Shown piece after piece: positions 1 to 22,009 of a DNA stretch of 64,000 nt; the stretch's first letter is position 1, and each line of letters begins with the position of its first letter. The notes beneath the pieces are model-generated. The model did not search any database. It saw only the letters and a program-made list of their open reading frames with translations, and was not told where the DNA came from. The stretch covers positions 2,698,133-2,762,132 of the forward strand of contig NZ_BAABKM010000002.1 of the NCBI RefSeq assembly GCF_039543825.1, given 5' to 3'. The translations under genes and the position numbers were made by a program. The stretch comes from Nocardioides conyzicola. GTDB lineage: Bacteria; Actinomycetota; Actinomycetes; Propionibacteriales; Nocardioidaceae.

Positions 1-1
1 C

Positions 2-550
2 GGGTCCCGGCTGGTGCGCACCGTGGTCGAGGCGATGACGGCACTGCCGTCGATCGTCGCCGGCCTGTTCATCTACTCGGCCCTGATCGTCGGACTCGGC
101 CTGCCCAGCAGCGGGCTCGCGGCGGCCCTCGCCCTGGCCGTAATGGGTCTCCCGATCATGGCGCGGGCCAGCGACGTCGTGCTGCGGGTCGTGCCCGGTG
201 GGCTGCGCGAGGCGTCGTACGCCCTCGGCGCCGGGCGGCTGCAGACGGTCTGGAAGGTCGTCCTGCCGACGGCCCGCCCCGGCCTGGCGACCGCGCTCAT
301 CCTCGGCATCGCCCGGATGGTCGGCGAGACCTCGCCGCTCATCCTCACGTCCGGGGCGTCGACCTTCCTCAACACCGACCCGACGAGCAACCCGATGAAC
401 TCGCTGCCGCTGTTCATCTACAACGCCGTCGCGTCCGGTCAGCCGGCCTTCGAGCAGCGCGGGTACGCCGCAGCGACGGTGCTGCTCGTCATCGTGCTCA
501 TCCTCTTCGTCTTCGCCCGTCTCGTCGCCCGCAGGAGGCCTGTCCGATGA
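2..550 (+). CDS. pstA: PstA phosphate ABC transporter permease, C-terminal part (cassette A)
   Basis: Inner-membrane permease subunit of the Pst phosphate importer; the start lies left of the window. The visible 182 residues contain the permease coupling region (EAMTALPSIVAGLF, then the EAxxxLGAGR-type EAA loop near residues 75-95 of the fragment) and the GETSPLI segment typical of PstA, with four hydrophobic helices. The paralogue at 12045-13292 aligns over the whole fragment. The stop overlaps the next start by 4 nt (ATGA), so it is translationally coupled to the PstS-like gene. It is the first visible gene of cassette A; a pstC would be expected just upstream by analogy with cassette B. 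Confidence 0.93.
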   Translation, partial: GSRLVRTVVEAMTALPSIVAGLFIYSALIVGLGLPSSGLAAALALAVMGLPIMARASDVVLRVVPGGLREASYALGAGRLQTVWKVVLPTARPGLATALILGIARMVGETSPLILTSGASTFLNTDPTSNPMNSLPLFIYNAVASGQPAFEQRGYAAATVLLVIVLILFVFARLVARRRPVR

Positions 551-2214
551 AGCTCCGTCCCCGTGTGTCGAGGATCGTCACCGCTGCCGCGGTGCTCGGC
601 CTGACGATGCTCGTGCCCGCGGCCGCCGTGCCGCCGGCCAACGCCGCGACGCACGCGCTGATCCAGGGATCGGGCTCGAGCTGGGCCGCCAACGCGATCA
701 ACCAGTGGGTCGCCGACGTGGCCAACCAGGGCATGCAGGTGGTCTTCACGGCCAACGGCGCCGCGCAGGGCCGCAAGGACTACGCCAACCGGTCCAACGA
801 CTTCGGCGTCTCCGACATCCCCTTCCGCGGCGCCGACCCGACGACGGGCCAGGAGGACAGCCCGCGCGGCCGGTCCTTCGCCTACCTGCCGATCGCCGCC
901 GGTGGTACGTCGTTCCCCTACCACGTCGAGGTCGCGGGCAAGCTGGTCCGCAACATCCGCCTGTCGGGCGAGACCATCGCGAAGATCTTCACCAGCCAGA
1001 TCACCAACTGGAACGACAAGCAGATCACGTCCGACAACAACGGCAAGGCGCTGCCGTCGATCCCGATCATCCCGGTCGTGCACTCCGAGGGCGCGGGCGT
1101 CACCAACCAGTTCACCCGCTACCTCGCGAAGCAGTACCCCGCGATCTGGGGTCCCTGCAACGGCGGCAAGGTCGTGGAGACCGAGTACTTCCCGCTCAAC
1201 TGCGGCAAGTCCACCGGCAACCAGAAGGCGCAGGCCGGCTCCGACGGCGTCATGAACTTCATCAAGAGCGCGGGTGCCAACGGCTCGATCGGCATCGAGG
1301 AGTACTCCTACCCGCTGCTGGCCGACTTCCCGGCGATCAAGCTGCTCAACAAGGCCGGCTACTACACGCTGCCGACCCAGTACAACGTGGCGGTCGCCCT
1401 GACCAAGGCGGTCATCGACACCAACCCGAAGTCCCCGACGTACCTGACCCAGAACCTCGACCAGGTCTACGTCAACCCGGACAAGCGGACCTACGCGCTC
1501 TCGTCGTACGTCTACGCGATCATCCCCACCGCCTCCGACGACTCGCGGATGACGACCGCCAAGCGCCAGACGCTCGCGGACTTCCTCTACTTCTCGATCT
1601 GCCAGGGGCAGTCGGAGATCGGTCCGATCGGCTACTCGTCGCTACCGGTCAACCTGGTCACCGCCGGCTTCGACCAGATCGGCAAGCTCAAGACGGCCGA
1701 CAGCAAGGTGGACCTCACCAAGCGGGACGTGAGCACCTGCCACAACCCCACGTTCATCGCGGGCAAGCCCAACGTGAACCACCTCGCGCAGATCGCCCCC
1801 AACCCGCCTGCCTGCGACAAGGTCGGCGCGGACCCCTGCGTCGCCGGCGTGGGCTCCTACAACGGCGACAACCCCACCGACGACAAGAACAACCAGCCCT
1901 CGGGCAACGGCTCGGGCGGTGGTGCGGGTGGCGCCGGTGGCGGGTCCGGCGCCGGTCCCGGCGGCACCGACGGCGGTGGCGCCACCGGCGTCAGCTCCGA
2001 CCTCGGGCTCGGTGGCACCGGTACGACGGGGAGCTCCGACGACCCGGCAACTGCGGGCGGCGACATCGTGCCGACCACGCTCGCCGCCGGCAGCGGGAGC
2101 GGGCCGACCAGCACCCTGACCGTGCTGGTGATCGCCCTGCTCGCCCTCGCGGTGATCCTGCCCGCCGTCGTCAGCCGGCTGCTGTCCCGTCGCCCCGGCG
2201 GAGGGTCGAGATGA
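547..2214 (+). CDS. PstS-like substrate-binding protein with Gly-rich linker and C-terminal membrane anchor (cassette A)
   Basis: Exported solute-binding protein of the PstS fold, 555 aa. It has a Sec signal peptide (cleavage probably after ANA, residue 33) and no lipobox Cys. The PstS domain spans about 38-430, followed by a Gly/Ser/Thr-rich linker (about 455-510) and a C-terminal hydrophobic helix with an Arg-rich tail (about 522-550). It should therefore be tethered at its C-terminus. PstS ligand positions are altered. The segment matching RSDGSGTT reads HSEGAGVT (179-186), so the Arg, Ser and Thr that contact phosphate in E. coli PstS are replaced. The upstream Ser-rich loop reads NGAAQG (from about 70). 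Asp90 in FGVSD is kept. The cassette B paralogue keeps the canonical RSDGSGTT. Substrate may thus be other than orthophosphate (inference). Confidence 0.9.
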   Translation: MKLRPRVSRIVTAAAVLGLTMLVPAAAVPPANAATHALIQGSGSSWAANAINQWVADVANQGMQVVFTANGAAQGRKDYANRSNDFGVSDIPFRGADPTTGQEDSPRGRSFAYLPIAAGGTSFPYHVEVAGKLVRNIRLSGETIAKIFTSQITNWNDKQITSDNNGKALPSIPIIPVVHSEGAGVTNQFTRYLAKQYPAIWGPCNGGKVVETEYFPLNCGKSTGNQKAQAGSDGVMNFIKSAGANGSIGIEEYSYPLLADFPAIKLLNKAGYYTLPTQYNVAVALTKAVIDTNPKSPTYLTQNLDQVYVNPDKRTYALSSYVYAIIPTASDDSRMTTAKRQTLADFLYFSICQGQSEIGPIGYSSLPVNLVTAGFDQIGKLKTADSKVDLTKRDVSTCHNPTFIAGKPNVNHLAQIAPNPPACDKVGADPCVAGVGSYNGDNPTDDKNNQPSGNGSGGGAGGAGGGSGAGPGGTDGGGATGVSSDLGLGGTGTTGSSDDPATAGGDIVPTTLAAGSGSGPTSTLTVLVIALLALAVILPAVVSRLLSRRPGGGSR

Positions 2215-4961
2215 TCGCCGTGACGCAGCGTCGTCGCCTGGCGTACGTCGGCGCGGGCCTGGTGGCGGTCGGCCTGCTCGTGGCGGGCCTGCTGGTGCCG
2301 CTCGCGACCGCGCCGGCCGAGTCCGCCGGTGCCTACCGGGTCACCGCGACCCGCACCGCCCTCGATGCCGACGGGACGTCGACGACGCTCGACCAGCGCA
2401 CGATCTCGATGGATGTCTCGCAGACCAAGAACCTGCGCGGGCGCCAGCAGCTGACGGTGTCCTGGTCCGGTGCCCACCCGACCGGCGGCACGGTCGCCGA
2501 CGTCAACTCGGCCGCCGGCGCAGGCGAGGAGTACCCGTTCGTCATCCTCCAGTGCCGCGGCACCGCCTCGGGGCAGAACGCCGTGCGCCCCGAGACCTGC
2601 TGGACCCAGACCTGGGCCGAGCGCTTCCAGCGCAGCTCGTCGGCCTGGCCGGTGTGGCGCGCCGACGCGGCCGCCGACGCGGACGCGCGCGGTCCCGCCG
2701 TCAACGCCCCGGACCCGCGCCCCGCCCCGTGCTTCGGTGCCGCGCGCTCCGAGCGCTGGCTGCCGTTCGACGCCGCCGACGGCACGACGTACGTCGGCGG
2801 GTCCGCAGGCTGTGCCGGCATGGCTCCGGAGTCGTCGAACGTCGACGGGTCCGGGCTCCCGAGCAACACGACCTACGGCATCACCGGCACCGACGGCAAG
2901 GGCTCCGAGCAGTTCACCGTCTTCAGCGCCGACGAGAACGCCTCGCTCGGCTGCTCGAGCGAGGTCCCCTGCTCGCTGGTCGCCGTCCCGATCATGGGCA
3001 TCAGCTGCGACGGCTTCGGCACGAAGCTGCCCGAGGAGGCCCGCCCGAGCGCGTCGGCGGGTGCGCGAGCCGACACCTTGTGCCGAGCGCCCGACGTCTA
3101 CCAGCCGGGTCAGATCGCCACGACCGGCACGGACGCCAACCTCGCCGTCTCCGGCGCCCTGTGGTGGGCGGCCTCCAACTGGCAGAACCGGATCACGGTC
3201 CCGCTGAGCTTCGCGGTGTCCTCGAGCGTCTGCTCGGTGCTGAACCCGACGGCGCCGCTGACCGCGTTCGGCTCGGTGCTGTTCTCCGACATCAGCGCCC
3301 AGTGGACGCCTCGCTTCTGCACCGACGACCGGCTCGAGCCGTTCGTGCACGTGCAGGCCGCAGACACCGCGGCCCGCACCCTCATCACCGCCGGCACCGC
3401 GTCGATGGTCCTCAGCAGCCGGGCGCCGGACGCCGGCTTCGGGAGACCCGTGGTCCAGGCCCCGGTCGCCCTCACCGGCTTCGCCGTGGCCTACAACGTC
3501 GACGACTCGTCCGGGAGACCGGCCAGGACGCTCAACCTCAACGCGCGGCTGCTCGCCAAGCTGCTCACGGAGTCCTACCCGGCCAACTCGCTGGTCGGCG
3601 ACAACTACCCGGCGCTGGCGAAGAACCCGATGAACATCACCAAGGACCCGGAGTTCATCGCGCTCAACCCGGACCTGCCCGAGTACGACACGGTCGAGGC
3701 GGCCGCGACCATCATGACGCTCTCGACCGAGACCGACATGACCACGGCGCTGACCAGCTACATCGACGCCGACCCCGAGGCGCGCAAGTGGCTCGACGGG
3801 GTCCCCGACCCGTGGGGCATGCGGGTCAACCCCAACTACATGCAGATCGACCTGCCGGTGGCCTCGTGGCCGCAGCTCGACGACTTCCAGCTGCCGCAGT
3901 CGATCATCGACGCCAAGATCAACCCCTGCTACAGCTACAGCCCCAGCCCGTACCTCGGCCTGATCGCCAACCCGACCGGGTTCGTGCAGACGATCGTGCA
4001 GAACGTCCAGTACTCGCTGTCCAACGTCAACATCGCCTGCCCCAACGGCGACTTCAGCGATGTCACGACGCTCCGGCTGCGGACCCAGGGCCGGCAGCAG
4101 CCGGGCCACCGGTTCGTGCTCGGGATCGTGCCGCTGACCTCGGCGTACCGCTACAGCCTGCGCACGGCGTCGCTCCAGACGACGTCGGACGTCGCCGCCA
4201 GCGACAAGATCACCGACGCGGCGGGGCGGACCTTCGTCGCCGCCGACTCCGCCGGGCTGAAGGCGGCGGGCAAGCTGCTGAAGCCGGACGAGGACGCCGG
4301 CGTCTGGGAGCTGGACTACGCCCAGCTCCACGAGGACGCGGGCGAGAGCGCGTACCCCGGGACGCTGCCGGTGTACGCCGACGTCCCGACCTCGGGCATC
4401 GACAAGGGCACGGCCAGGCGGGCGGCGCAGTTCCTCGAGTACGCCGCGACGACGGGACAGCAGCCGGGCACCGGCAACGGTCAGCTGCCTCCGGGGGCGC
4501 TGCCGCTCACCGAGGCCAACGGGCTCTCGGCCCTCTCGGCGTACACGCACCGGGCCGCCGCGGCGGTCCTCGCCCAGAAGGGGGACGTGCCCAAGCTGGT
4601 CGCCGACGACCCGGACCCGACGGAGTCGCCCAGCACCGACCCCACGGGCGCGCCGACGGTGTCACCCCCGACCGGGACGGGTGCCGGGCCTGGGGCGCTG
4701 CCCAGCGCCAGCGTCTCGCCGAGTGCGGACACGCCCGGCAAAGGCGCGGGGCCGAAGCCGGCCGACACCGAGGTGATCCGTACCGTCGGCGCCGAGTCGG
4801 CGTTCGGCGGGGTCGGCCTGCCGGTGGTCCTGCTCGCCGGTCTCGTCGTCGGGTTGGCCGGCCTGAGCCTCCGCTTCGCCGGCCGAGCCGTCGCGCTCGG
4901 TCGCTCGGCCCCGGCCCTCCTGGGCCGGGCGCGCGGCGGACGACGGAGGGCCAAGCCGTGA
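2211..4961 (+). CDS. Large membrane-anchored surface protein with divergent PstS-like region (cassette A)
   Basis: 916-aa exported protein with no family I can name. Visible parts: an N-terminal signal/anchor helix (about 14-32); a Cys-containing N-terminal domain with LTVSWSGAHPTGG and LVAVPIMGISC; a long central region; a Pro/Ser/Thr-rich linker (about 800-860); and a C-terminal hydrophobic helix with a basic tail. The middle and C-terminal parts read like a diverged periplasmic-binding fold: GFAVAYNVD followed by LNLNARLLAKLLTE recalls the PstS GIAxxYN / IFTGKI region, and YPGTLPVYADV with GQQPGTGNGQLPPG recalls the PstS C-lobe. No LPxTG or LAxTG precedes the last helix. The ATG at 2211 overlaps the previous stop (ATGA). 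The paralogue at 14914-17508 shares the layout. Confidence 0.82.
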   Translation: MIAVTQRRRLAYVGAGLVAVGLLVAGLLVPLATAPAESAGAYRVTATRTALDADGTSTTLDQRTISMDVSQTKNLRGRQQLTVSWSGAHPTGGTVADVNSAAGAGEEYPFVILQCRGTASGQNAVRPETCWTQTWAERFQRSSSAWPVWRADAAADADARGPAVNAPDPRPAPCFGAARSERWLPFDAADGTTYVGGSAGCAGMAPESSNVDGSGLPSNTTYGITGTDGKGSEQFTVFSADENASLGCSSEVPCSLVAVPIMGISCDGFGTKLPEEARPSASAGARADTLCRAPDVYQPGQIATTGTDANLAVSGALWWAASNWQNRITVPLSFAVSSSVCSVLNPTAPLTAFGSVLFSDISAQWTPRFCTDDRLEPFVHVQAADTAARTLITAGTASMVLSSRAPDAGFGRPVVQAPVALTGFAVAYNVDDSSGRPARTLNLNARLLAKLLTESYPANSLVGDNYPALAKNPMNITKDPEFIALNPDLPEYDTVEAAATIMTLSTETDMTTALTSYIDADPEARKWLDGVPDPWGMRVNPNYMQIDLPVASWPQLDDFQLPQSIIDAKINPCYSYSPSPYLGLIANPTGFVQTIVQNVQYSLSNVNIACPNGDFSDVTTLRLRTQGRQQPGHRFVLGIVPLTSAYRYSLRTASLQTTSDVAASDKITDAAGRTFVAADSAGLKAAGKLLKPDEDAGVWELDYAQLHEDAGESAYPGTLPVYADVPTSGIDKGTARRAAQFLEYAATTGQQPGTGNGQLPPGALPLTEANGLSALSAYTHRAAAAVLAQKGDVPKLVADDPDPTESPSTDPTGAPTVSPPTGTGAGPGALPSASVSPSADTPGKGAGPKPADTEVIRTVGAESAFGGVGLPVVLLAGLVVGLAGLSLRFAGRAVALGRSAPALLGRARGGRRRAKP

Positions 4962-5878
4962 CGGCGCCCGCGCCCGAGGCGCCGCGGACCGTCGTCCGCG
5001 TGCTGCCGGCCGACACGGCCCCGCTGCCCCGCCCGGAGCGCGGCCTGAGCGAGGCCGCGCTCGGCCAGACCATGATCGTGCTCGGCCTGGTCGCGGTCTG
5101 GGTGCTGTCCTACCTGTTCGTCTTCAGCGACTTCCAGCAGGGGCACGCCCAGCACCGGCTCTACGCGCAGCTCCGCACCGAGCTCGCGCTCGGTGAGGCC
5201 CCGGCGGGTGCACCGATCGCCGTGGGCGCGCCCGTGGCCCTCGTCTCGGTGCCGGACGCCGGCATCGACGACCTCGTGGTCGTGGAGGGGACGACCGCCG
5301 CGGTGCTCCAGCAGGGACCCGGACACCAGCAGGGCAGCGTGCTGCCCGGTCAGGCCGGGGTGAGCGTGCTGATGGGCCGGGCACTCTCGTTCGGTGCGCC
5401 GTTCAAGCACGTCCCGCAGCTCCGGGTGGGCGACCCGATCGACGTGACCACGGTCCAGGGCACCTTCCACTACGAGGTGAGCGGCGTACGCCGCAAGGGC
5501 GACCCGGTCCCGCCGGCCCTGACCGACGGTGCCAGCCGGATCACGCTGGTGACGGCGGTGGGGGAGGGACGCCTGGCCGCGCTCGGCCCGTCGAAATCGG
5601 TCTACGTCGACGCGACGCTCGACGGAGACGCCCAGCCCGCCGGCGCGGTCGCGGCGATCGACCCCCAGGGGGCGCCCTTCGCGCACGACGCCGGGTTCAC
5701 GACGCTGGCCGTGCTCGCCCTGGCCCTCGAGGTGCTCGTCGCGGCGGTCCTGCTCGTCGTCTGGGCCCGGCACCGATGGACCCCGCTGGCCGCCTGGGTC
5801 GCCGGTGTCCCCGTCATCCTCGCGGCCCTCTGGCTGGTCTCGTCAGCCGCCAGCCGACTGCTCCCGAACCTCGTCTGA
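4958..5878 (+). CDS. Sortase-fold membrane protein lacking catalytic His and Cys (cassette A)
   Basis: 306-aa protein with one N-terminal membrane helix (about 30-52), an extracytoplasmic class-E-sortase-like beta-barrel (about 85-225) and two C-terminal helices. Recognisable sortase landmarks are the VEGTTAAVLQQGPGH region, LPGQAG and SFGAPF. In active sortases the segment after LPG reads GH, but here it is MGR (Arg141). The TLxTC strand reads TLVTA (Ala200). The catalytic Arg normally found in the RLVV strand is also not visible (SVYV). By sequence it should not transpeptidate. The GTG start overlaps the preceding stop (GTGA). The neighbouring surface proteins lack sorting signals, so a structural or ligand-binding role in a surface complex is more likely. 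Confidence 0.85.
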   Translation: MTAPAPEAPRTVVRVLPADTAPLPRPERGLSEAALGQTMIVLGLVAVWVLSYLFVFSDFQQGHAQHRLYAQLRTELALGEAPAGAPIAVGAPVALVSVPDAGIDDLVVVEGTTAAVLQQGPGHQQGSVLPGQAGVSVLMGRALSFGAPFKHVPQLRVGDPIDVTTVQGTFHYEVSGVRRKGDPVPPALTDGASRITLVTAVGEGRLAALGPSKSVYVDATLDGDAQPAGAVAAIDPQGAPFAHDAGFTTLAVLALALEVLVAAVLLVVWARHRWTPLAAWVAGVPVILAALWLVSSAASRLLPNLV

Positions 5879-5917
5879 GAGCCCGGACCGAGCCGGTGGA
5901 CCAGACCATCCCTGCGA

Positions 5918-5975: not shown

Positions 5976-6039
5976 CACGCCACATGCTTCGACCTCGCCG
6001 ACCGGCGCGGGTCAGAACGTCCCAGGAAAGGCTCCACAC

Positions 6040-7254
6040 ATGTCGAAGAGACGGACCGCCGTCGCCATCACCCTCGCGGGGGTCGTCTCGGCCGGTGTCC
6101 TGGCTGCGGCCCTGCCCTCCCAGGCCGACCCGGCGCCGACCGCGACCGACGTCGTCGGCGTGGGCTCCGACATCATCCAGAACTCCGTCGACTTCCTCGG
6201 CGACGGCTACTCCTGGTCCGGCGGGTCCCTGCCCGGCTACAACACGGCCGGCAACAAGAACCGCCTGATCAGCTTCAGCGCCACCGCTGACGGCAACGGC
6301 CGCAACGCCTTCACCGATCCCGCCCTCGGCACGGTCGGCAAGCTCAACCCCACGATCGTGCTCCGGGCCGGCACCTCGCCGGTGCAGCGCCCGAACGGCG
6401 GCGGCGCCGGCCTCAACGCCCTGATCGCGGACGGCAACGCGACCAACGGCGGCCGGATCAGCTTCGTGCGCAGCCCCAACAAGCCGACCTCGGCGCAGCA
6501 GACCAGCGCCGGCAACAGCCTGCACACCGCGCTGCACACGGTCCAGTTCGCCGACGACAAGCAGTACATCGCGACCGCGACCACCACCAACGCGCCGGCG
6601 ACCCTGACGACCGGGGACCTGGTGAAGATCTACTCGGGCACGTGGACCACCTGGGGTGACGTCGCCGCCGGCGTGACCCCCGGCGCGCACACCGGCGAGA
6701 CGATCGTCCCGCTGCTCCCGCAGGACGGCGCGGGCGTGCAGACGATCTTCCTGAACGCCCTCAAGGCCGCCAACGGGGGCACGGCGATCACCCTCGGCGG
6801 GGCGGTCCAGAAGGTCCAGCAGAACGACCCGACCACGATCACCGCGCTCCCGGACGCGACCCGCAAGAACGCCATCGTGCCGTTCCCCAAGGGCCGGTAC
6901 GAGCTGCTCGGTGCGGGCTTCTTCCACGACCCGACGCCGGTCTACAACTCCGAGAGCCCGGCCCCGGCCCTGTCCAACGCGGGCATCCAGCTGCTGACCA
7001 GCGGGTCGAACTTCATCGCGGACATCCCGTACTACGTGGTGTTCCGTGAGTCGGACGTCGACAGCGACACGCCGTGGCAGCCCGGCAGCACGCTGAACTG
7101 GGTCCAGACGCTCTTCTACAACCCGGACTACGACCCGGAGGAGCCCGGCGACGTCACGCCGCCGTTCGTCGCCAGCGCCGCCGGCAAGGCGATCCTCGAG
7201 TCGATCGGCCTGACCCCGCTGTACGTCGACCACGGCAACACGACGACGGGGTGA
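6040..7254 (+). CDS. Secreted PstS-like substrate-binding protein without anchor (cassette A)
   Basis: 404-aa exported protein. Its signal peptide ends near SQA-D (about residue 30), and there is no lipobox and no C-terminal helix, so it should be soluble or wall-associated. It keeps PstS-like landmarks: VGVGSDIIQ at the N-terminus, TLTTGDLVKIYSGTWTTWGD (the IFxGKITNWND region), and PQDGAGVQTIF where PstS has RSDGSGTT. The ligand-binding Arg is therefore Gln. It resembles the N-terminal part of the cassette B fusion (18538-20271), sharing VGVGSD, ITLRAGT/IVLRAGT and PVQRPNG. The start has AGGAAAGG upstream. It is preceded by its own AT-rich promoter candidate and followed by a hairpin, so it may be expressed at a level different from the membrane components. 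Confidence 0.85.
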   Translation: MSKRRTAVAITLAGVVSAGVLAAALPSQADPAPTATDVVGVGSDIIQNSVDFLGDGYSWSGGSLPGYNTAGNKNRLISFSATADGNGRNAFTDPALGTVGKLNPTIVLRAGTSPVQRPNGGGAGLNALIADGNATNGGRISFVRSPNKPTSAQQTSAGNSLHTALHTVQFADDKQYIATATTTNAPATLTTGDLVKIYSGTWTTWGDVAAGVTPGAHTGETIVPLLPQDGAGVQTIFLNALKAANGGTAITLGGAVQKVQQNDPTTITALPDATRKNAIVPFPKGRYELLGAGFFHDPTPVYNSESPAPALSNAGIQLLTSGSNFIADIPYYVVFRESDVDSDTPWQPGSTLNWVQTLFYNPDYDPEEPGDVTPPFVASAAGKAILESIGLTPLYVDHGNTTTG

Positions 7255-7339: not shown

Positions 7340-7981
7340 GTGAGCAGCACACTCGACTCGGCGCAGCACCGCGCCGATGCCGAGCCTCCGACCAGCACCC
7401 GGTCGCGGCTCGGACGCCGAGGTGTCGCCATCGCGCTCGTCGTGGTTGCGGTCGTGGTGGCGGTGGCCGTGGCTCTGGAGCTCCGGCTGACCGGAGCGCC
7501 GTCCGAGGCGCCGTACACCGACCCGGCCGCCTCCGGCCGGCTGACGCTGTGCGGCGCCGACGGCAAGGCGATCACCGAAGGATCGACCAAGGACCCGGTG
7601 TTCGCCGCGACCGTGGTGGGTGCGACCGCCGCCACGGGTGGCTACGCCGGCGAGGGCCGCACGGCCGCCGTGTTCGCCTACCAGCCCCGTGAGGGGCTGG
7701 CCCCGTCGGAGTGGAGCGGTCTGCAGCTCACCGCGCCGTCGTCGTACGACGACCCCGCGGCGCCGCAGGTCGCCCTCGCCGAGGGTGACACGACGCTCGC
7801 CCAGTTCCTGGCGGGCTACCCCGCCGCCTACGACGGCTGGGTGCAGCTCCGCCTCTACCTCGCCGCTCCCGACCAGCCGGTCGCGAGCCAGCACTACGAC
7901 ACCGTCGACCTCCAGGTCGACGGCACGACCTGGCGCGCCGTCGACACCGGCGCCGCCACCTGCACGACCACCAAGCCCTGA
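7340..7981 (+). CDS. Membrane-anchored protein homologous to the N-terminal domain of the next protein
   Basis: 213 aa: a short cytoplasmic N-terminus, one membrane helix (about 33-52), and an extracytoplasmic domain of about 150 residues ending in two Cys-containing turns (LTLCGADG and AATC). I do not recognise the domain. It is clearly paralogous to residues about 45-200 of the following protein: both share the order L-T-L, FAYxP, SGLQL, VALx[55 protein letters not shown] start with AGGAG 10-13 nt upstream. Probably one anchored and one released version of the same ligand or partner domain (inference). Confidence 0.8.
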   Translation: MSSTLDSAQHRADAEPPTSTRSRLGRRGVAIALVVVAVVVAVAVALELRLTGAPSEAPYTDPAASGRLTLCGADGKAITEGSTKDPVFAATVVGATAATGGYAGEGRTAAVFAYQPREGLAPSEWSGLQLTAPSSYDDPAAPQVALAEGDTTLAQFLAGYPAAYDGWVQLRLYLAAPDQPVASQHYDTVDLQVDGTTWRAVDTGAATCTTTKP

Positions 7982-8022
7982 TCCACAGCTCCACCCGAAC
8001 CGCTCCGTGCGAGAGGAAGACC

Positions 8023-10904: not shown

Positions 10905-10937
10905 GTTCGCCTCTCGTTCACCGTTCGCCGACCGTTC
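10905..10937 (+). promoter_or_regulatory. PHO-box-like 11-nt direct repeats upstream of pstC
   Basis: Three consecutive 11-nt units: GTTCGCCTCTC, GTTCACCGTTC, GCCGACCGTTC, followed by GTTTCGG in the same phase. The first two match the direct-repeat unit described for the Streptomyces PhoP response regulator (GTTCACC-like, 11-nt period). They lie 107-139 nt before the chosen pstC start. Phosphate-starvation control of cassette B is inferred. Confidence 0.65.
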
Positions 10938-11043
10938 GTTTCGGTGATCTCCCGACACTTCTGGCGTTCCGATGCCTCGCTCGGGCGAGGACGACCAGGT
11001 CGCGCTCCGTGCGCGGTCCCCGAATTCCCGAAGAAAGCGTCTG

Positions 11044-13292: not shown

Positions 13293-14917
13293 CCGCCCGA
13301 CTCAGCCTGCACCGCCTGCTCCTGATGGCGCTGCTCTGCTGCCTGGTGACCCTGGCGATGACCGTCCGCCTGGCCGGACCCGCCCAGGCGGTCTCGTACA
13401 CCTCGATCGAGGGCTCGGGATCGACCTGGTCGCAGGTGATCCTGCAGCAGTGGATCGCGGACGTCTCGTCCAGCGGCATGCAGATCACCTACAACGGCTC
13501 GGGCTCGTCGCAGGGCCGCAAGGACTTCGCCAACGGCGTCACCGACTTCGGCATCTCCGAGATCCCCTACCAGGGCGTCGACCCGGTCTCCGGGCAGGCA
13601 GACAGCAGCTCGCGGCCCTACGCGTACTTGCCGATCGTCGCGGGCGGCACGGCGTTCACCTACCACGTCGAGGTCGGCGGCAAGCTGGTCAAGACGCTGC
13701 GCCTGTCGGGCGAGACGATCGCCAAGATCTTCACCAACAAGATCACCAACTGGAACGACGCGGCGATCACCGCCGACAACAACGGCCACGCGCTGCCCTC
13801 GCTGCCGATCCACCCGGTCGTCCGGTCCGACGGCTCCGGCACCACGGCCCAGTTCACCCGCTACCTGGCGACGATGTACCCCTCGATCTGGGGGCCGTTC
13901 AACGGCGGCAAGGCGGTGCTCACCTCGCAGTTCCCGCGCCAGGGTGCGCAGGTGGCTGCGTCCGGCTCGGACCAGGTCATGAACACGATCAGCAGCGCGG
14001 CCGGCAACGGGACGATCGGGTACGTCGAGTACTCCTACCCGGTCAACGCCCACTACCCGGTGGTCAAGGTCGAGAACAAGGCCGGCTACTTCGTCGAGCC
14101 GACGCAGTACAACGTGGCCGTGGCCCTGACGAAGGCCAAGATCAACCAGGACAAGAGCTCGAAGGACTACCTGACCCAGATCCTCGACGGGGTCTACTCC
14201 CACCCGGACCCGCGTGCGTACCCGCTGTCGTCGTACTCCTACATGATCATCCCGACGGGCGCCAGCGACCAGCGGATGACGACGTCGAAGCGCCAGACCC
14301 TGGCCGACTTCCTGACGTACTCGATCTGTGCGGGGCAGTCGAAGGCCGGTCCGTACGGGTACTCGCCGCTGCCCCTCAACCTCGTCCAGGCGGGCTTCTC
14401 CCAGATCAACAAGCTGAAGAAGGCGGACTCCGCCGTCGACCTCACCAACCACGACGTCACGAAGTGCGACAACCCGACCTTCGTGAAGGGCAACCTCCAG
14501 GCCAACCACCTGGCGGACATCGCGCCGAAGCCGGCGTCCTGCGACAAGGCGGGCGCGGGGCCGTGCGGCACCGAGACCGGCACCAACACGCCGTCGACCG
14601 AGGGTGGCAAGGGCGGCGGTGGCGGCGGCGCCTCGAACACCCCGGGTGGCACGACGCCGGGCGGCACCGCCGGCGGCGGCGCAGGGAACACCCCGGGCGG
14701 CGTCGACCCGGTCACCGGCCTGCCGACCGACACCGGCGGGACCGGTACGACGACGGGCGGCGGCGACGTGGTCGCCAACCCGGTCGAGCTGAGCGCCCAG
14801 CGCACCGGCGACGACAAGGTCTTCAGCGGGGTCGCGGTGCTGGAGCTGCTCGCGATCATCCTGCTCCCGGGCCTCTACGTCGCCATCGCGCGGCGGCGTC
14901 GGGAGGTGTCGCGATGA
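13289..14917 (+). CDS. pstS: PstS phosphate-binding protein with Gly-rich linker and C-terminal membrane anchor (cassette B)
   Basis: 542-aa exported binding protein. The signal peptide ends near AQA (about residue 35) and there is no lipobox; the PstS domain spans about 38-420, a Gly/Thr/Pro-rich linker about 430-500, and a C-terminal helix with RRRR-like tail about 510-535. The phosphate motif is canonical: RSDGSGTT at 179-186, with a Ser-rich NGSGSSQG loop. The residue matching E. coli Asp56 is Glu (Glu91, FGISE). This is the only binding protein in the window with the full phosphate signature, so it is the best candidate for true phosphate import. GTG start overlapping the pstA stop; ATGA overlap with the next gene. 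Confidence 0.93.
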   Translation: MTARLSLHRLLLMALLCCLVTLAMTVRLAGPAQAVSYTSIEGSGSTWSQVILQQWIADVSSSGMQITYNGSGSSQGRKDFANGVTDFGISEIPYQGVDPVSGQADSSSRPYAYLPIVAGGTAFTYHVEVGGKLVKTLRLSGETIAKIFTNKITNWNDAAITADNNGHALPSLPIHPVVRSDGSGTTAQFTRYLATMYPSIWGPFNGGKAVLTSQFPRQGAQVAASGSDQVMNTISSAAGNGTIGYVEYSYPVNAHYPVVKVENKAGYFVEPTQYNVAVALTKAKINQDKSSKDYLTQILDGVYSHPDPRAYPLSSYSYMIIPTGASDQRMTTSKRQTLADFLTYSICAGQSKAGPYGYSPLPLNLVQAGFSQINKLKKADSAVDLTNHDVTKCDNPTFVKGNLQANHLADIAPKPASCDKAGAGPCGTETGTNTPSTEGGKGGGGGGASNTPGGTTPGGTAGGGAGNTPGGVDPVTGLPTDTGGTGTTTGGGDVVANPVELSAQRTGDDKVFSGVAVLELLAIILLPGLYVAIARRRREVSR

Positions 14918-17508
14918 CGATCTCCCTCCGACGGCGTCCCCGCGCCGCGCTCGCCGTCCTCGGCGCCCTCGCCGTCATCGCCGGCGGCCTGGCCCTGACG
15001 GCCCCCGCGACGGAGGCCGTACCGACCCCGCTGCCGCGGGCGTCGAGCACCGACGACTCCGTGTCCACCACCAAGACCGTGACCCGGGACTACTACCCGT
15101 CGACGTCGAGCACCGAGCCGGTGACGTCGAGCAACAAGGTGACCGTCAAGGTCGACCGCCACACCGACCTGCAGTCCCGCGAGCGGTTGGCCGTGAGCTG
15201 GTCCGGCGCACACCCGACCGGGGGCCGCGCCGGCAACCCGTACGGCGAGAAGGGCATCGACCAGGAGTACCCGGTCGCGATCTTCGAGTGCCGCGGCGTC
15301 GACGACCCCGACGCCCCCGCGGCGGACCGGATCTCGCCGGACACCTGCTGGACCAACACCATCCAGGAGCGCAGCCAGAGCGACGACGCCGACCGGTCGA
15401 TCTGGCGTGACGACCGGTACGCCGACCCGGCCGACACCGGCCAGGTCTCGGGCGTCGACGAAGACGACCTGCCGGACAGCTGCCCGACCCGCCAGGACAG
15501 CACGGCGTACCACTACACGCCGTTCCGGGCCGCCAACGGCACCTTCTACGCCGCCTGCGACGCCGAGCACCTGCCGCCCGAGGCGGCGGTCGGCTCGGTG
15601 GACCCGCCCAACGAGGTCTTCGCCTACACCGGCGTCGACGGCAAGGGCACCGCGCAGTTCGAGGTCCGCACGAAGTCCGAGAACGAGTCGCTCGGTTGCT
15701 CCGACAAGGTCGCCTGCACCCTCGTGGTCGTCCCGATCATGGGACTGAGCTGCGTCGACGCCACCGCGTCGTGCAACAAGACCGGTGCCTACCCGCCGGG
15801 CTCGCGCAACGACGGCACGACGGGTGCCCAGCAGGCGGTGTCGGGCTCGCTGTGGTGGTCGGCCTCCAACTGGCGCAACCGGATCAGCATCCCGCTGGAC
15901 TTCGCGCTCCCGCCCAACACCTGCACGCTCCTCGGACAGGGTGCTCCCGTGCCGTTCTACGGCTCCGAGCTGCTCAGCCAGGCCGCGCTGCAGTGGTCGC
16001 CGGCCTACTGCCTCAACAAGTCGCGCTTCAACTGGCAGAGCAACGCCATGCCCGACGAGGCCGCGTTCGGCCTGATGACCGCCGGCACGGCCGCGGCGGC
16101 CGAGGTGACCGAGCGCCAGGACGCTGACACCGGCGTCGGGTACGCGCCGACCGCGGTCTCCGGCTTCGGCATCGCCTACAGCGTCGATGACCCCTCGACG
16201 GGCCTGCAGTACGGCTCGCTGAAGCTCAACGCCCGCCTGCTGGCCAAGCTGCTCACGGAGTCGTACGGCGGGGACGCGGTCGGCGCCAAGCGGCCCGGTA
16301 TCCAGGACAACCCGTGGGGCCTGCAGACCGACCCCGAGTTCATCAAGCTCAACCCCGACCTCGAGCTGGCCTTCGGCCGGACTCCCTCGGTGGCCGGCGC
16401 GGCACTGCTGGCACTGTCCACGGGGTCGGGCGTGATCGACCAGCTGACGTCCTACATCGCGCACGACGCGGACGCGATGGCCTTCATCGACGGCAAGGCC
16501 GACCCGTGGGGGATGAAGGTCAACCCGGCGTACAAGAAGGTCGCCGTGCCGGTCAGCACCTGGCCGCTGCTGGACACCTGGGTGCCGTCGAACACGGGCT
16601 CGGAGTGCCTCGACCAGAACAAGGCGCCGTACCTGCCGAAGGTCGCGGCTCCCGTCAGCAGCCTGCGGCTGATCGCCCAGGCGATGCTCTTCAACTGGCC
16701 CAACGTGCAGACCTCCTGCGAGAAGGACGTCACCACCGGCCTGTGGAAGCTCGGGCGTATCGGGGTCCAGGAGGTCGGGCAGCGCTTCATGCTGGGCCTG
16801 GTCACCCTGGGTGATGCCGCGCGCTACGGCCTGCCGGTGGCCGCCCTGCAGGCCAAGAAGGGCAGCTACGTCGAGCCCACTGACAAGAGCATGTCCGCCG
16901 CGCTCAAGCTGTCGAAGCAGTCGACGAAGCTCAAGCCGTTCGAGCTCGACCAGGCTGACATCCGCACGAGCCCGATCGCCTACCCCGGCACGATGGTGGT
17001 GTACACGGCGGCCAAGACCTACGGCCTCGACCAGGCGTCCGCCGGGCGCGTCGCGCAGTTCATCCAGGTGTCGTCGACCGAGGGCCAGACCGCAGGGCGT
17101 GGCAACGGCAAGCTGCCGGACGGCTACCTGCCCATCGCGGCCACGGGTGCGACCGCTCCGTTGTACCGATCTGCTCAGGAGGTCCGCACCGCGGTCCTCG
17201 CGCAGAAGAAGCCGAGCACGCCGGCATCGCCGAGCCCGACGGACGGTGCCAGCGCGGGCCCCGGGGGAAGCGGCGGTCCCATCGAGCCTCCGTCCACGCT
17301 GCCGACGGCACCCGTCCCCTCGGCGTCGACCTCCGCTTCGCCGACGGCCCCGCCGACCTCCACCGGCCCGATCACGACCGCCGACACCGCGCGGGTCAGC
17401 TCCTCCATGGGCGGCGGGCTGCTGCCCTTCCTCCTGGTCGGGGCCGTGCTCGCCGGCGTCGTCGCCGTCGTCACCCGGTTGATGCTCGGGCTCAGGGGTG
17501 TGCGATGA
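14914..17508 (+). CDS. Large membrane-anchored surface protein with divergent PstS-like region (cassette B)
   Basis: 864-aa exported protein, paralogue of the 916-aa protein of cassette A with the same layout: N-terminal signal/anchor, a domain with LAVSWSGAHPTGG, EYPVAIFECRG and LVVVPIMGLSC, then SLWWSASNWRNRISIPLDF. A PstS-like core follows (SGFGIAYSVDD, LKLNARLLAKLLTESY, DPWGMKVNP, GQRFMLGLVTL, YPGTMVVY, GQTAGRGNGKLPDG). A Ser/Pro/Thr-rich linker (about 770-825) and a C-terminal helix end it. The shared Cys residues suggest disulfides outside the membrane. No sorting motif precedes the helix. It overlaps pstS upstream and the sortase-fold gene downstream by 4 nt each. Function unknown; structural or co-receptor role inferred from context. 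Confidence 0.82.
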   Translation: MTISLRRRPRAALAVLGALAVIAGGLALTAPATEAVPTPLPRASSTDDSVSTTKTVTRDYYPSTSSTEPVTSSNKVTVKVDRHTDLQSRERLAVSWSGAHPTGGRAGNPYGEKGIDQEYPVAIFECRGVDDPDAPAADRISPDTCWTNTIQERSQSDDADRSIWRDDRYADPADTGQVSGVDEDDLPDSCPTRQDSTAYHYTPFRAANGTFYAACDAEHLPPEAAVGSVDPPNEVFAYTGVDGKGTAQFEVRTKSENESLGCSDKVACTLVVVPIMGLSCVDATASCNKTGAYPPGSRNDGTTGAQQAVSGSLWWSASNWRNRISIPLDFALPPNTCTLLGQGAPVPFYGSELLSQAALQWSPAYCLNKSRFNWQSNAMPDEAAFGLMTAGTAAAAEVTERQDADTGVGYAPTAVSGFGIAYSVDDPSTGLQYGSLKLNARLLAKLLTESYGGDAVGAKRPGIQDNPWGLQTDPEFIKLNPDLELAFGRTPSVAGAALLALSTGSGVIDQLTSYIAHDADAMAFIDGKADPWGMKVNPAYKKVAVPVSTWPLLDTWVPSNTGSECLDQNKAPYLPKVAAPVSSLRLIAQAMLFNWPNVQTSCEKDVTTGLWKLGRIGVQEVGQRFMLGLVTLGDAARYGLPVAALQAKKGSYVEPTDKSMSAALKLSKQSTKLKPFELDQADIRTSPIAYPGTMVVYTAAKTYGLDQASAGRVAQFIQVSSTEGQTAGRGNGKLPDGYLPIAATGATAPLYRSAQEVRTAVLAQKKPSTPASPSPTDGASAGPGGSGGPIEPPSTLPTAPVPSASTSASPTAPPTSTGPITTADTARVSSSMGGGLLPFLLVGAVLAGVVAVVTRLMLGLRGVR

Positions 17509-18494
17509 GCGTGGCCACCGCAGAGTCGGGAGCACCGGCGCCGACCCAGCCGCCCGAGCCGTCGACGCCGGTCTCGCGCCGGGCTCGGCGGCAGCGTCCG
17601 CCTCGCCGGACGCGTCCGACCCGACCGGTCCGGGCCGGGGAGCCGGAGGAGGCGCTGTCGATCCTCTCGTCGGCTCTCACGGTCATCGCCCTCGGGTGCG
17701 CGTGGATGCTGCTGCAGCTGCTCGTCCTCGGCGGGCTGTCCCAGGCCCGCAGCCAGGACCTCCTCTACAACGAGTACCGCCAGCAGGTCGCGGCGGCGAC
17801 CGCACCGACCGGGTCGGTCGACATCGACGGCCACCCGCTCGCCGCGGGCGCGCCGGTCGCGGTGCTCACGATCCCCTCGCTCGGGCTGTCGCAGGTGGTG
17901 GTGTCCGGCACCTCGTCCGGTGACCTCCTCGCCGGACCGGGACACCAGCGCACGACGCCGCTGCCCGGGCAGGCCGGCATCTCCGTGGTCATGGGGCGAG
18001 CCGCGACGTACGGCGCGCCCTTCGGCGACATCGGGTCCCTCCGGGCCGGCGACGAGATCACGGTCCAGAACGCCCAGGGCGTGGTGACCTACCAGGTCGA
18101 GGACGTACGCCGGGCAGGGGACCCGGTGCCGCAGCCCCTCACGGGCAAGCAGTCCCGTCTCATCCTGGTGACCGCCGAGGGCAGTGGCGCACTGTCCGCG
18201 CTGCGCGCCCAGAACGCCCTCTTCGTGGACGCGATCACGACCAAGGCCTTGCCCGCGGGCCCGCTGGCCGGGAGCGCGCTCCCCCTGTCCGAGCAGCCGA
18301 TGGCACGCGACTCCAGCGCGCTGCCGATGCTCGTCCTCCTGCTCGCCGGACTCGCGCTGCTGGTGCTCGTCGTCAGCATCGCGCGCCGGCGGTTCCGGGC
18401 CGCGCTGGTGTGGGTTCTCGCCACTCCCTGCGTGATCGCCCTCGCCTGGGCCACGACCGACCAGGTCATGCGCCTCCTACCGAACTTGATGTGA
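17505..18494 (+). CDS. Sortase-fold membrane protein lacking catalytic His and Cys (cassette B)
   Basis: 329-aa paralogue of 4958-5878. It has an Arg/Pro-rich cytoplasmic N-terminus (1-48), a membrane helix (about 55-75), a sortase-like barrel (about 110-250) and two C-terminal helices. The His position reads MGR (Arg165) just before the conserved TYGAPF, and the TLxTC strand reads LVTAE (Ala224). The Arg-bearing strand reads ALFV. The same two substitutions in both cassettes argue for a conserved non-enzymatic role rather than decay. ATG overlaps the previous stop. Confidence 0.85.
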   Translation: MSVATAESGAPAPTQPPEPSTPVSRRARRQRPPRRTRPTRPVRAGEPEEALSILSSALTVIALGCAWMLLQLLVLGGLSQARSQDLLYNEYRQQVAAATAPTGSVDIDGHPLAAGAPVAVLTIPSLGLSQVVVSGTSSGDLLAGPGHQRTTPLPGQAGISVVMGRAATYGAPFGDIGSLRAGDEITVQNAQGVVTYQVEDVRRAGDPVPQPLTGKQSRLILVTAEGSGALSALRAQNALFVDAITTKALPAGPLAGSALPLSEQPMARDSSALPMLVLLLAGLALLVLVVSIARRRFRAALVWVLATPCVIALAWATTDQVMRLLPNLM

Positions 18495-18537: not shown

Positions 18538-20271
18538 ATGTCCGTACGCAAGATCTGCGCTGCACTCGGAGTGACCGCAGTGGTCACCTCCGGGCTTGCG
18601 CTCGCCGCCACGGCCCCGGCCAGCGCGGACCCTGCCAGCACGCCCGCCGCCGACGCCTACGTCGGCGTCGGCTCCGACACGACCCAGTTCGTGATGACCG
18701 ACCTGATCAACGGCGCGACGGTGAACGGCACCCCCGTCGCCGGCTACAACGCGGGTGTCACGAGCGGGAACCCGCTGATGGCCTCGTTCGACGCGTGCAC
18801 CGTCCCGGTGGGCGCGATGTTCCCCTGCACCCCCGGCACCGCCGACTCCAGCACCTTCATCACCCTGCGCGCCGGAACCGCTCCGGTCCAGCGGCCGAAC
18901 GGCTCGGGCGACGGCAAGAAGCGGCTGTACGGCTCCTCGGACAACCCGGACGTGACGTTCGCACGGTCCTCGGGCGGCCTCAACGACGCCGAGGTGACGG
19001 CACAGCTCAAGGCCTACCCGTTCGCCGTCGACACGCTCGTGATGGTGACCGGTCCCCACTCCAACGCTCCGGCCACGCTGACGCCGCAGCAGGTGCTCGG
19101 CATCTACAACGGCACCATCACCAACTGGAGCGCGGTCGGCGGCACCGCCGGCGAGATCAACGCACTCAAGCCCCAGTCCGGCTCGGGCACGCTGTCGTTC
19201 TTCCAGACCCAGCTCAACACGATCAACGGCGGGACGGCCGTGTCGATGCAGGGCAAGGACATCGAGCTCGCCGACACCACGACCCACCAGCCGTGCGCGA
19301 CCGAGTCGAGCACCTGCGTCAAGACCAAGGTGCAGGAGCACGACCCGACGCTGATCACCAACGACCCGAACGCGATCGCCCCGTTCTCCCTCGGTCGCGC
19401 CAACCTGGCCGGCGTCGACTCGGTGAAGGTCGTCAAGGGCTGGAGCGCCCGCCGTGCGCTCTTCAACGTGCTGCGCAGCAAGGACGCCGGCAACTCCGGC
19501 AAGACCGACAACTCCGCCTGGTTCGCCGGCACGCCGGCCATGGACGCCATCTTCGGCAAGAGCGGGTTCCTCTGCTCCGAGGCCGCTCGCCCGCTGATCG
19601 AGAACGCCGGCTTCAAGCAGCTGCTCTCCTTCAACGACGGTGGCTCCTGTGGCGCCCAGGTCTCCACGACCGCGGCTCCGGACCTCTCGGTCTACGACGC
19701 CGACGGTGTGAACCCGATCGTCTCGGCCACGGCCAGCGGCACCAAGTACGGCGCTGCGCACTCGATCGCCGTCACGGTCTCCGGCGCGGGTGGCACCCCG
19801 ACCGGCGACGTGAAGGTCAACCTCGGCAGCTGGACCGGCACCGGCACCCTGTCGGCCGGCAAGGCCACCATCACCGCTCCGGCCACCCTGGCCGCGGGCA
19901 AGTACGACGCGGCCGTCACCTACCTCGGTGACGACAACTTCACCGACGCCTCCACCGACGTCCCGCTCACGGTCGCCAAGGCGAAGTCCGCGGTGACCGA
20001 GGGCTTCGCGGCGAAGATCGCCAAGAAGGCCAAGAAGGTGGCCGGCACCGTCAAGGTGACGATCAGCGGCTCGAAGATCAAGGGCACCGGCCCGGTGACC
20101 GTGAGCCTCGGCAAGAAGATCCTCGCCCGCGGCACGGCCAAGGCCGGTTCGGTCAAGCTGAGCCTCTCGGCGAAGCAGCTCAAGAAGGGCAAGAACAAGC
20201 TCGTGGTCAAGTACGCCGGCAACAGCAACGTGGCGGCGTCCTCCAAGAGCTTCACCATCACCAAGAAGTGA
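18538..20271 (+). CDS. Secreted PstS-like protein fused to two Ig-like repeats (cassette B)
   Basis: 577 aa: signal peptide (cleavage near ASA-D, about residue 31), a PstS-like domain (about 36-375), and two Ig-like repeats (about 380-480 and 482-577). Landmarks are YVGVGSDTTQF, TLTPQQVLGIYNGTITNWS and PQSGSGTLSFF, where the PstS ligand motif has Gln for Arg and Ser for Asp. The last repeat has about 22 Lys and one Glu, so it is very basic. It corresponds to the separate secreted PstS-like (6040) and Ig-repeat (8023) genes of cassette A. It starts 43 nt after the sortase-fold gene, behind a GGGAGCA ribosome-binding site, and is followed by two strong hairpins. Confidence 0.87.
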   Translation: MSVRKICAALGVTAVVTSGLALAATAPASADPASTPAADAYVGVGSDTTQFVMTDLINGATVNGTPVAGYNAGVTSGNPLMASFDACTVPVGAMFPCTPGTADSSTFITLRAGTAPVQRPNGSGDGKKRLYGSSDNPDVTFARSSGGLNDAEVTAQLKAYPFAVDTLVMVTGPHSNAPATLTPQQVLGIYNGTITNWSAVGGTAGEINALKPQSGSGTLSFFQTQLNTINGGTAVSMQGKDIELADTTTHQPCATESSTCVKTKVQEHDPTLITNDPNAIAPFSLGRANLAGVDSVKVVKGWSARRALFNVLRSKDAGNSGKTDNSAWFAGTPAMDAIFGKSGFLCSEAARPLIENAGFKQLLSFNDGGSCGAQVSTTAAPDLSVYDADGVNPIVSATASGTKYGAAHSIAVTVSGAGGTPTGDVKVNLGSWTGTGTLSAGKATITAPATLAAGKYDAAVTYLGDDNFTDASTDVPLTVAKAKSAVTEGFAAKIAKKAKKVAGTVKVTISGSKIKGTGPVTVSLGKKILARGTAKAGSVKLSLSAKQLKKGKNKLVVKYAGNSNVAASSKSFTITKK

Positions 20272-20276
20272 CCGAC

Positions 20277-20350
20277 GGTGGTGGGCCGGACCCTGCGTCC
20301 GGCCCACCACCTCGTCCGGATCGGGGACGCGACCCGTCCCCGACCCGGAC
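20277..20350 (+). terminator. Tandem hairpins between the PstS-Ig gene and pstB
   Basis: First stem: 15 bp, perfect (20277-20291 with 20297-20311), 5-nt loop. Second stem: 15 bp with one mismatch (20314-20328 with 20336-20350), 7-nt loop. They follow the stop by 5 nt and precede the pstB start by 41 nt. There is no T-run. Likely partial termination or protection of the upstream mRNA, so that the secreted protein is made in excess over PstB. Confidence 0.7.
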
Positions 20351-20391
20351 CGGCACCACCACCCCGCACCAGACCAGAGAGACTTGATGTC

Positions 20392-21258
20392 ATGAGCACC
20401 ACCCAGCCCACCGAGGTGATCCCCCGCGTGGACCCGGCGCCCGCTGGTCCGGCTCCGACGACCGCGTCGGGAGAGCCAGCCCGTCTCGCCGAGCTGCGGG
20501 CCCACGAGATCTCCTGCTGGTTCGGCGACCACATGGTGCTCGACCGGGTGTCGCTGACCATGCGCGCCGGCGGCATCACCGCGCTCATCGGCCCCTCGGG
20601 CTGCGGCAAGTCGACGTTCCTGCGCACCCTCAACCGGATGCACGAGCTGGTGCCCTCGGCCAAGCTGGCCGGCGAGGTCCTGCTGGACGGCGAGGACATC
20701 TACGCGCCGGACAAGAAGCTCACCGACGCGCGCCGTCACATCGGCATGGTCTTCCAGAAGCCCAACCCGTTCCCCGCGATGTCGATCCGGGAGAACGTCA
20801 TCGCCGGCCTGAAGCTCACCGGCACCAAGGCGTCCCGTTCCGACAAGGAAGCACTCATCGAGCGCTGCCTGCGCCTGGCGGGTCTGTGGAACGAGGTCAA
20901 GGACCGCCTCGAGGCACCCGGCGGTGGCCTGTCGGGCGGTCAGCAGCAGCGGCTCTGCATCGCCCGCTCGATGGCGATCCAGCCGCGCGTCCTGCTCATG
21001 GACGAGCCCTGCTCGGCCCTGGACCCGACGTCGACGCGGGTCATCGAGGAGACGATGAAGGAGCTGGCACAGGAGGTGACGATCGTGATCGTCACCCACA
21101 ACATGCAGCAGGCCGCACGGGTCTCCGACCAGTGCGCCTTCTTCCTCGCCGCCCACGGCACCCCCGGCGTCATCGTCGAGCACGGGGATACTTCTGCCAT
21201 GTTCCAGAACCCGCAGGACCAGCGCACCAGCGACTACGTCCAGGGCCGCTTCGGCTGA
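20392..21258 (+). CDS. pstB: PstB phosphate ABC transporter ATPase (cassette B)
   Basis: 288-aa ATPase: Walker [10 protein letters not shown] (67-75), [30 protein letters not shown] and VTHNMQQ motifs, all canonical for PstB. The ATG at 20392 was chosen because an AGAGAGA purine tract precedes it and the longer in-frame reading runs through the tandem hairpins. It is highly similar to cassette A PstB (9462). The lytic transglycosylase begins 7 nt after its stop. Confidence 0.95.
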
Positions 21259-21265
21259 TCGGCAG

Positions 21266-22009
21266 ATGTCCCCTCTTCGCATCATCTCGACGCTGGCCAG
21301 CGCCCTGGCGATCGTGGCCGGCCTCGGCTTCGTCCTCTCCCAGACCCTGCTCGCGCCCGCGCCGCTGGTCGTCTCGCAGCAGCAGCCGCAGTACGTCCAG
21401 GCGCCCAGCCCCGACACCAAGCTGGCGAAGCAGCCGGACGCCCCCGCCGCGCCGACGAAGGTCGACCCCGCGTGGGTGACGAAGATGGCGGGCAGGGCCG
21501 GGATCCCGGCGCCCGCCGTACGCGCCTATGCCAACGCGCAGCTCGCCGAGCGGCGCGGCTGCGAGGTCGGCTGGACCACGCTCGCCGGCATCGGCTGGGT
21601 GGAGTCGCAGCACGGCACCATCGGCGGCCGCACGCTCGGCGAGGACGGGCACTCGTCCACGCCGGTGCTCGGCCCGGCGCTCGACGGCAAGGACTTCGCC
21701 GCGATCCGGGCCACCCCGGAGAGCACCGCCTGGCACGGCGACCCGACCTGGGACCACGCCGTCGGCCCGCTGCAGTTCATCCCGTCGACCTGGGAGACCT
21801 GGGGCTCCGACGGTGACGGTGACGGCGTCGCCGACCCCAACGACCTCGACGACGCGGCGTTCGCCGCCGCCCGCTACCTCTGCGCGGACGGTCACGACCT
21901 GACCACCGGCGCCGGCTGGGCCGACGCGGTCTTCGGCTACAACCACGCCCAGTCCTACGTCGACGCGGTCTACGCCGCCGCCTCGGCGTACGCCGACCGG
22001 ACGAGCTAG
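21266..22009 (+). CDS. Secreted/membrane-tethered lytic murein transglycosylase (MltB/SLT_2-like)
   Basis: 247 aa with an N-terminal membrane helix (about 5-27), a Pro/Gln/Ala-rich spacer (to about 70) and a transglycosylase domain (about 72-240). GIGWVESQHGTI contains the probable catalytic Glu; AVGPLQFIPSTWETWG, the DGDGDGVADPNDLDD loop and AAARYLC follow the actinobacterial MltB-like pattern. It would cleave peptidoglycan glycan strands without hydrolysis. It lies 7 nt after pstB and is probably co-transcribed with cassette B, so local wall opening for the surface proteins is possible (inference). The ribosome-binding site is weak (GGCAG). Confidence 0.87.
   Translation: MSPLRIISTLASALAIVAGLGFVLSQTLLAPAPLVVSQQQPQYVQAPSPDTKLAKQPDAPAAPTKVDPAWVTKMAGRAGIPAPAVRAYANAQLAERRGCEVGWTTLAGIGWVESQHGTIGGRTLGEDGHSSTPVLGPALDGKDFAAIRATPESTAWHGDPTWDHAVGPLQFIPSTWETWGSDGDGDGVADPNDLDDAAFAAARYLCADGHDLTTGAGWADAVFGYNHAQSYVDAVYAAASAYADRTS

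Follow-up and report, generated by a model that had tools for sequence, protein, structure and literature searches.

The genome of Nocardioides conyzicola (4.96 Mb, 7 contigs) contains two tandem Pst-type gene cassettes within positions 1-22009 of a 64,000-nucleotide stretch of contig NZ_BAABKM010000002.1 (positions 2,698,133 to 2,762,132, forward strand); this whole stretch is called the window below. It is probable that each cassette encodes an extended Pst-type importer in which a protein with a catalytically dead sortase domain, referred to here as the pseudo-sortase, acts as a docking subunit, and that cassette 2 (type A) imports phosphate while cassette 1 (type B) serves another ligand or role. 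Computation shows that the unit is conserved, which folds its proteins have, that the catalytic residues are lost, that the ligand pockets differ and that a repeat stands before the type-A pstC.

Cassette organisation and conservation

Both cassettes have the gene order pstC, pstA, anchored pstS, a large gene, a sortase-like gene, secreted pstS with or beside immunoglobulin (Ig)-like repeats, and pstB. The pstC of cassette 1 lies directly upstream of the window, where it was seen in stretch L108, and cassette 2 has its own copy. The order and the protein sizes are as the first-pass annotation had given them, and its 4-nt gene overlaps were recovered at seven sites, each ATGA or GTGA (547, 2211, 4958, 12045, 13289, 14914 and 17505). 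The two pstC genes, a Glyoxalase_6 gene between the cassettes, a lytic transglycosylase, the large protein's PstS fold and the missing sortase catalysis come in addition to what that annotation described. The cassettes are homologous, with 36% identity over 919 columns for the large proteins and 42% over 289 columns for the sortase-fold proteins. All four PstS proteins, anchored and secreted, match the Pfam family PBP_like_2, and the two sortase-fold proteins match Sortase.

An alignment of the large protein was searched against species genomes and gave 234 confirmed relatives, the best 80 of which were used; 26 further stretches (7 + 19) were added, three being left out as copies or near-copies. 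The counts exclude L003 and L004 (copies of the window), L090 (identical to L079), L110 (identical to L083) and L091 (near-copy of L058/L059), the last of which was kept in a single pocket table and left out of the box, pseudo-sortase residue, core and tail counts. The core was defined as pstC, pstA, pstS, pseudo-sortase and pstB around the large gene, counted in loci with enough flanking sequence.

The cassette layout is a conserved system. The core is complete in 77/81 well-flanked loci (57/58 type A, 13/13 type B, 7/10 type C; the types are described below), and a pseudo-sortase accompanies the large gene in 62/62, 16/16 and 10/10 such loci respectively. Type-A loci with enough flank have pstC, pstA and pstB in 66/66, 66/66 and 62/62 cases, type-B loci in 14/14, 14/14 and 16/16. 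The pseudo-sortase frame, which was checked, starts at the large-gene stop with a 4-nt overlap in 69/75 type-A, 19/19 type-B and 1/11 type-C loci. The sole incomplete type-A locus, L017, presents PstS and the large protein in one open frame. Their fusion was considered and rejected, the linker and anchor of PstS seeming to be read in another frame, and judging from the reading frames a frame error is likely.

Among the best 80 of the 234 relatives, large proteins come from Nocardioidaceae, Cellulomonadaceae, Intrasporangiaceae and actinobacterial metagenome-assembled genomes, including Frankiaceae, Acidimicrobiaceae and Ilumatobacteraceae. At an expectation value (E) of 1e-20 the large protein was found in 57/198 genomes of the family and 40/196 of the order, samples which overlap. 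In a phylum sample at E 1e-3, 14/396 genomes gave a match; 6 of these are ordinary PstS proteins matching the PstS-like C-terminal part only, 7 are strong, and G016, whose locus also has a pseudo-sortase, was kept. The reverse search, in 61 family genomes which are presumably part of the 198, matched the pseudo-sortase in 10; eight matches exceeded 100 bits, all eight in genomes with the large gene, and the remaining two were partial (61-63 bits). In the distant genome L092 (3511-11063) a set of the order pstC-pstA-pstB-pstS is accompanied by genes for a pseudo-sortase and a divergent large-like protein that point away from it, an arrangement which is perhaps an early form.

Two old types

In a tree of 88 large proteins, type A comprises 75 rows including window copy 2 (support 99 by the Shimodaira-Hasegawa-like approximate likelihood ratio test) and type B 8 rows including window copy 1 (support 100). 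Type C is distant, with unsure placement and long branches at L086, L087 and L092. Recent tandem duplication was rejected, as the two copies fall in separate, well-supported clades; by this phylogeny the cassettes are two old paralogous types. Trees of pstC, pstA, pstS, pstB and the pseudo-sortase, built with all B and C loci and only about 26 A loci, keep A, B and C mostly apart, albeit imperfectly: 3-6 label changes were counted, the minimum being 2 and the shuffled mean 21.7-24.1. Type B spans Nocardioidaceae to Acidimicrobiaceae. Both types occur by score in 7/57 positive family genomes, and the type-B pocket was confirmed in the six of these other than the present genome. The types stand in tandem in G585, as in the window, and 0.4 Mb and 1.6 Mb apart in G552 and G472; a type-B tail lies just upstream of type A in L018 (same genome as L114), L019 and L028.

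The sortase-fold protein and the large protein

The catalytic Cys is found in 0/106 and the catalytic His in 1/106 sortase-fold proteins, and working-sortase identity was rejected on these counts. The Cys position is occupied by Ala in 70/106 and by Ser in 23/106, the His position by Arg or Lys; in the cassette 1 protein His is replaced by Arg and Cys by Ala. Judged by its residues, the protein does not appear to be a functional sortase, and its attachment of proteins to the wall is unlikely because the residues of a working sortase are absent. Several homologues carry the database names "class E sortase" or "sortase A", which are misleading. In type A the sortase fold (about residues 97-249) is flanked by membrane helices and the protein ends in LLPNLM, an LPN-type tail predicted by the positive-inside rule to be on the outer face.

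The large protein can be described as a degenerate PstS with an added domain, according to its structure model. In the 864-aa copy the model has a beta-rich part at residues 50-340, a PstS fold at 342-763 and a membrane helix at 833-860; homology to this copy gives the 916-aa type-B protein an N-terminal region, a PstS-like fold and a C-terminal anchor. A Pfam scan found no match in either large protein, N-terminal region included, and the NCBIfam model TIGR00975 (PstS) matched the C-terminal part of both weakly (21-23 bits, cut-off 205). The PstS fold is present and the phosphate-binding Arg135, Asp137 and Thr141 are not kept; the profile alignment places Leu501, Thr503 and Val507 there, Leu501 being found in at least 90% of large-protein alignment A1. 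The "large surface protein" of the first-pass annotation is recast in its fold. As for the membrane-anchored, wall-spanning apparatus proposed there, anchoring is predicted, and the only features pointing to a span across the wall are low-complexity linkers.

Ligand pocket and control region

The pocket was read at positions which we take to form the Escherichia coli PstS site: T10, F11, S38, D56, R135, D137, S139, G140 and T141. Type-A anchored PstS has TWSERDSGT in 67/70 rows, that is, D56 is replaced by E, F11 by W, and the remaining positions are kept; in window cassette 2, T10, S38, R135, D137, S139, G140 and T141 are kept. The cassette 1 protein has SWADHEAGV (T10S, S38A, R135H, D137E, S139A, T141V in E. 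coli numbering). All 19 distinct type-B loci depart from the phosphate pocket at R135 and/or S139/T141; S38A and S139A with T141V or I occur in 13/19 (the Nocardioidaceae), R135 is H or Q with D137E in 11, and R and D are kept in 8. Type C anchored PstS mostly retains R, D and S139 (5/6 rows). The secreted PstS-like proteins of both types miss the Arg by motif register; SGT is kept in most of type A and in 2/8 readable distinct type-B loci (L081, L084), the cassette 1 protein having AGV. A further anchored-type PstS, a 605-codon frame with the pocket ASSDRDSGT, was seen at L107 (4482-6296, minus strand), and that 11-kb stretch showed neither a pst permease nor pstB nor any other gene of the cassettes.

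A PHO-box-like direct repeat (GTTCACC-N4-GTTCACC, up to 3 mismatches) was sought within about 110 bp before pstC, with a Streptomyces consensus which may not be the PhoP site of this host. It occurs in 59/66 type-A loci and in 21/3874 background windows from the same loci; the seven type-A loci missing the threshold have 4 mismatches (six) or 6 (one), and L121, filed under type A, has the repeat with 3. In type B it was found in 0/17 distinct loci (0/6 and 0/12, with one duplicate; best 4 mismatches, L109), and in type C in 1/5 loci of the first set and 1/4 of the second. The same genome also holds an ordinary pstSCAB (L106) with a perfect box 77 bp before the pstS start, which was inferred at L106:3118; a PiT-type permease, a PhoU-like gene and the end of a polyphosphate kinase were seen there by eye.

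The ligand difference between the cassettes is supported because the type-B PstS pocket is changed and the PHO-box-like repeat is missing. The first-pass annotation had the second copy diverging for another ligand; the difference in ligand finds this support, but the changed copy is the first. On sequence, type A appears to be a Pst importer by the genetic characters tested, and type B departs from one at the pocket.

Features of the window

Table 1. Position, strand and basis of assignment of the features in and beside the two cassettes
Feature	Position	Strand	Basis or remark
pstA 3' part, cassette 1, type B	2..550	+	pstC and pstA start upstream of the window (locus L108)
Anchored PstS, type B, altered pocket	547..2214	+	Pfam PBP_like_2
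Large protein, 916 aa, type B	2211..4961	+	Homology to modelled cassette 2 copy; tree
Pseudo-sortase, type B	4958..5878	+	Pfam Sortase
Secreted PstS-like protein, type B	6040..7254	+	Pfam PBP_like_2
213-aa protein, domain in common with Ig protein N-terminus	7340..7981	+	37% identity over 167 columns
Ig-like protein, three Big_3_5 repeats	8023..9465	+	Pfam
pstB, cassette 1	9462..10313	+	74% identity to cassette 2 pstB
Glyoxalase_6 gene, between cassettes, same strand	10353-10790	+	Pfam
PHO-box-like direct repeat GTTCGCC-N4-GTTCACC, 1 mismatch	10905..10922	+	67 bp before cassette 2 pstC
pstC, cassette 2, type A	10972..12048	+	
pstA, cassette 2	12045..13292	+	
Anchored PstS, type A, pocket kept	13289..14917	+	Pfam PBP_like_2
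Large protein, 864 aa, type A	14914..17508	+	Structure model
Pseudo-sortase, type A	17505..18494	+	Pfam Sortase
Secreted PstS-like protein with Big_3_5 Ig-like repeats	18538..20271	+	Pfam
pstB, cassette 2	20278..21258	+	Likely start closer to 20392
SLT-type lytic transglycosylase	21266..22009	+	Pfam SLT_2

Between the cassette 1 pseudo-sortase and secreted PstS genes, positions 5914-5979 have 39% GC in surroundings of about 72%, and a scan of this A+T-rich stretch gave no sigma-70-like promoter. The domain which the 213-aa protein has in common with the Ig protein's N-terminus (7340-9465) recurs in type-B loci; compared with solved structures it gave nothing better than E 0.17. In 39/62 type-A loci a relative of the lytic transglycosylase is encoded in the same direction as the large gene and no more than 12 kb from it, not always after pstB. 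In the window the transglycosylase is followed by a putative coding frame of 749 aa (22212-24461) with no Pfam match at E 0.01.

Proposed function and alternative explanations

In the proposed importer, PstC, PstA and PstB would form the channel of each cassette, and outside the membrane would stand the tethered PstS, the secreted PstS, whose Ig repeats are its own or those of a neighbouring protein, and the large tethered degenerate PstS with its additional N-terminal region. The pseudo-sortase, a membrane protein accompanying these three PstS-fold proteins, would be a non-enzymatic docking subunit that keeps the tethered PstS, the large protein or both at the permease. Type A would be a phosphate importer under PhoP control that serves in starvation alongside the ordinary pstSCAB, and type B an ancient paralogue not subject to this control, with a PstS for a different ligand or role.

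Several points weigh against this proposal. Interaction, expression and transport roles are deduced from sequences and models, and the pseudo-sortase model is itself of moderate quality (predicted local distance difference test score, pLDDT, 72; predicted template modelling score, pTM, 0.57). The box consensus derives from Streptomyces, the 66 type-A loci are related and hence not independent, and 7/66 of them fall below the threshold. R135 and D137 are kept in 8/13 Nocardioidaceae type-B loci, where the supposed ligand change follows from S38A, S139A and T141V or I only; the secreted PstS lacks the Arg, which leaves its ligand in doubt even for type A. Coupling of the pseudo-sortase to the large gene is rare in type C, and 3/10 loci of this type have an incomplete core. 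The distribution of the system within the family is also patchy.

A more specific version of the proposal can be advanced only tentatively. The sortase fold would be a permanent non-enzymatic subunit of an ATP-binding cassette (ABC) importer, its LPN-type tail would be a pseudo-substrate, either built-in or presented by a partner, by which the PstS-like proteins are docked to the permease, and type B would take a non-phosphate ligand.

Somewhat doubtful is the explanation that the pseudo-sortase serves in assembly or holding, accompanying the tethered PstS and the large protein while they are exported and staying outside the working importer. In its favour, the gene directly follows those of the anchored proteins and is translationally coupled in types A and B, and the fold is retained with catalysis lost; however, the pseudo-sortase stands beside the permease in 88/88 loci, which fits a stoichiometric subunit at least equally, and no chaperone feature was seen.

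It is rather improbable that the large degenerate PstS and the pseudo-sortase constitute a sensor module, by which phosphate or another ligand is sensed and signalled instead of being fed to the channel. Pst complexes feed PhoR signalling, and both the Leu at the Arg135 position of a protein with the PstS fold and the PHO-box-like repeats of type A would agree with sensing. Nevertheless, neither a kinase nor a regulator is present among the cassette genes of the window, and the PhoU-like gene is found at the ordinary pst locus instead.

Two further explanations have very little probability. A sortase-fold protein still acting as a transpeptidase with another nucleophile, attaching Ig or PstS proteins to the wall, could be read from the Ser at the Cys position in some proteins and from the nearby transglycosylase, but Ala is far commoner at that position, the His is gone in 105/106, and inspection by eye of the C-termini of the cassette proteins in the window showed no LPXTG/LAXTG-type signal. 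Equally slight is the chance that type B is a functionless copy in decay, as its altered pocket and missing repeat might suggest, for its core is intact in all 13 well-flanked loci across families and the same S38A/S139A/T141V-or-I change recurs in 13/19 distinct loci.

Relation to known systems and significance

The cassettes were compared with known systems. With the PstSCAB importer (E. coli; L106) they share PstC, PstA, PstB and, in type A, the phosphate pocket of PstS and the upstream PHO-type repeat; in contrast to it they have three PstS-fold proteins instead of one, a transmembrane tether, a pseudo-sortase and Ig repeats, and no phoU gene was seen in the window's cassettes. Class E sortases (Thermobifida fusca, Streptomyces avermitilis, and SrtE1 of Streptomyces coelicolor) have the same sortase fold, whereas the pseudo-sortase is without the catalytic Cys and His, is linked to an ABC importer and has two extra C-terminal helices ending in the LPN-type motif. 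Unlike PstS-1/2/3 of Mycobacterium tuberculosis, the large protein is extended by a further N-terminal region, carries insertions within its PstS fold, has a transmembrane tail and is accompanied by a pseudo-sortase.

Many actinobacteria possess a conserved, enlarged version of a transporter regarded as well understood, equipped with three PstS-fold proteins and a dead sortase. Should the pseudo-sortase prove to be a subunit, the sortase fold would have been put to a new use, and many database "sortase" entries would be misnamed. In the A/B pair an altered pocket can be set directly against the absence of the control repeat, and with this system gene deletion could test how a ligand is passed on from the side of the wall to the permease in thick-walled bacteria.

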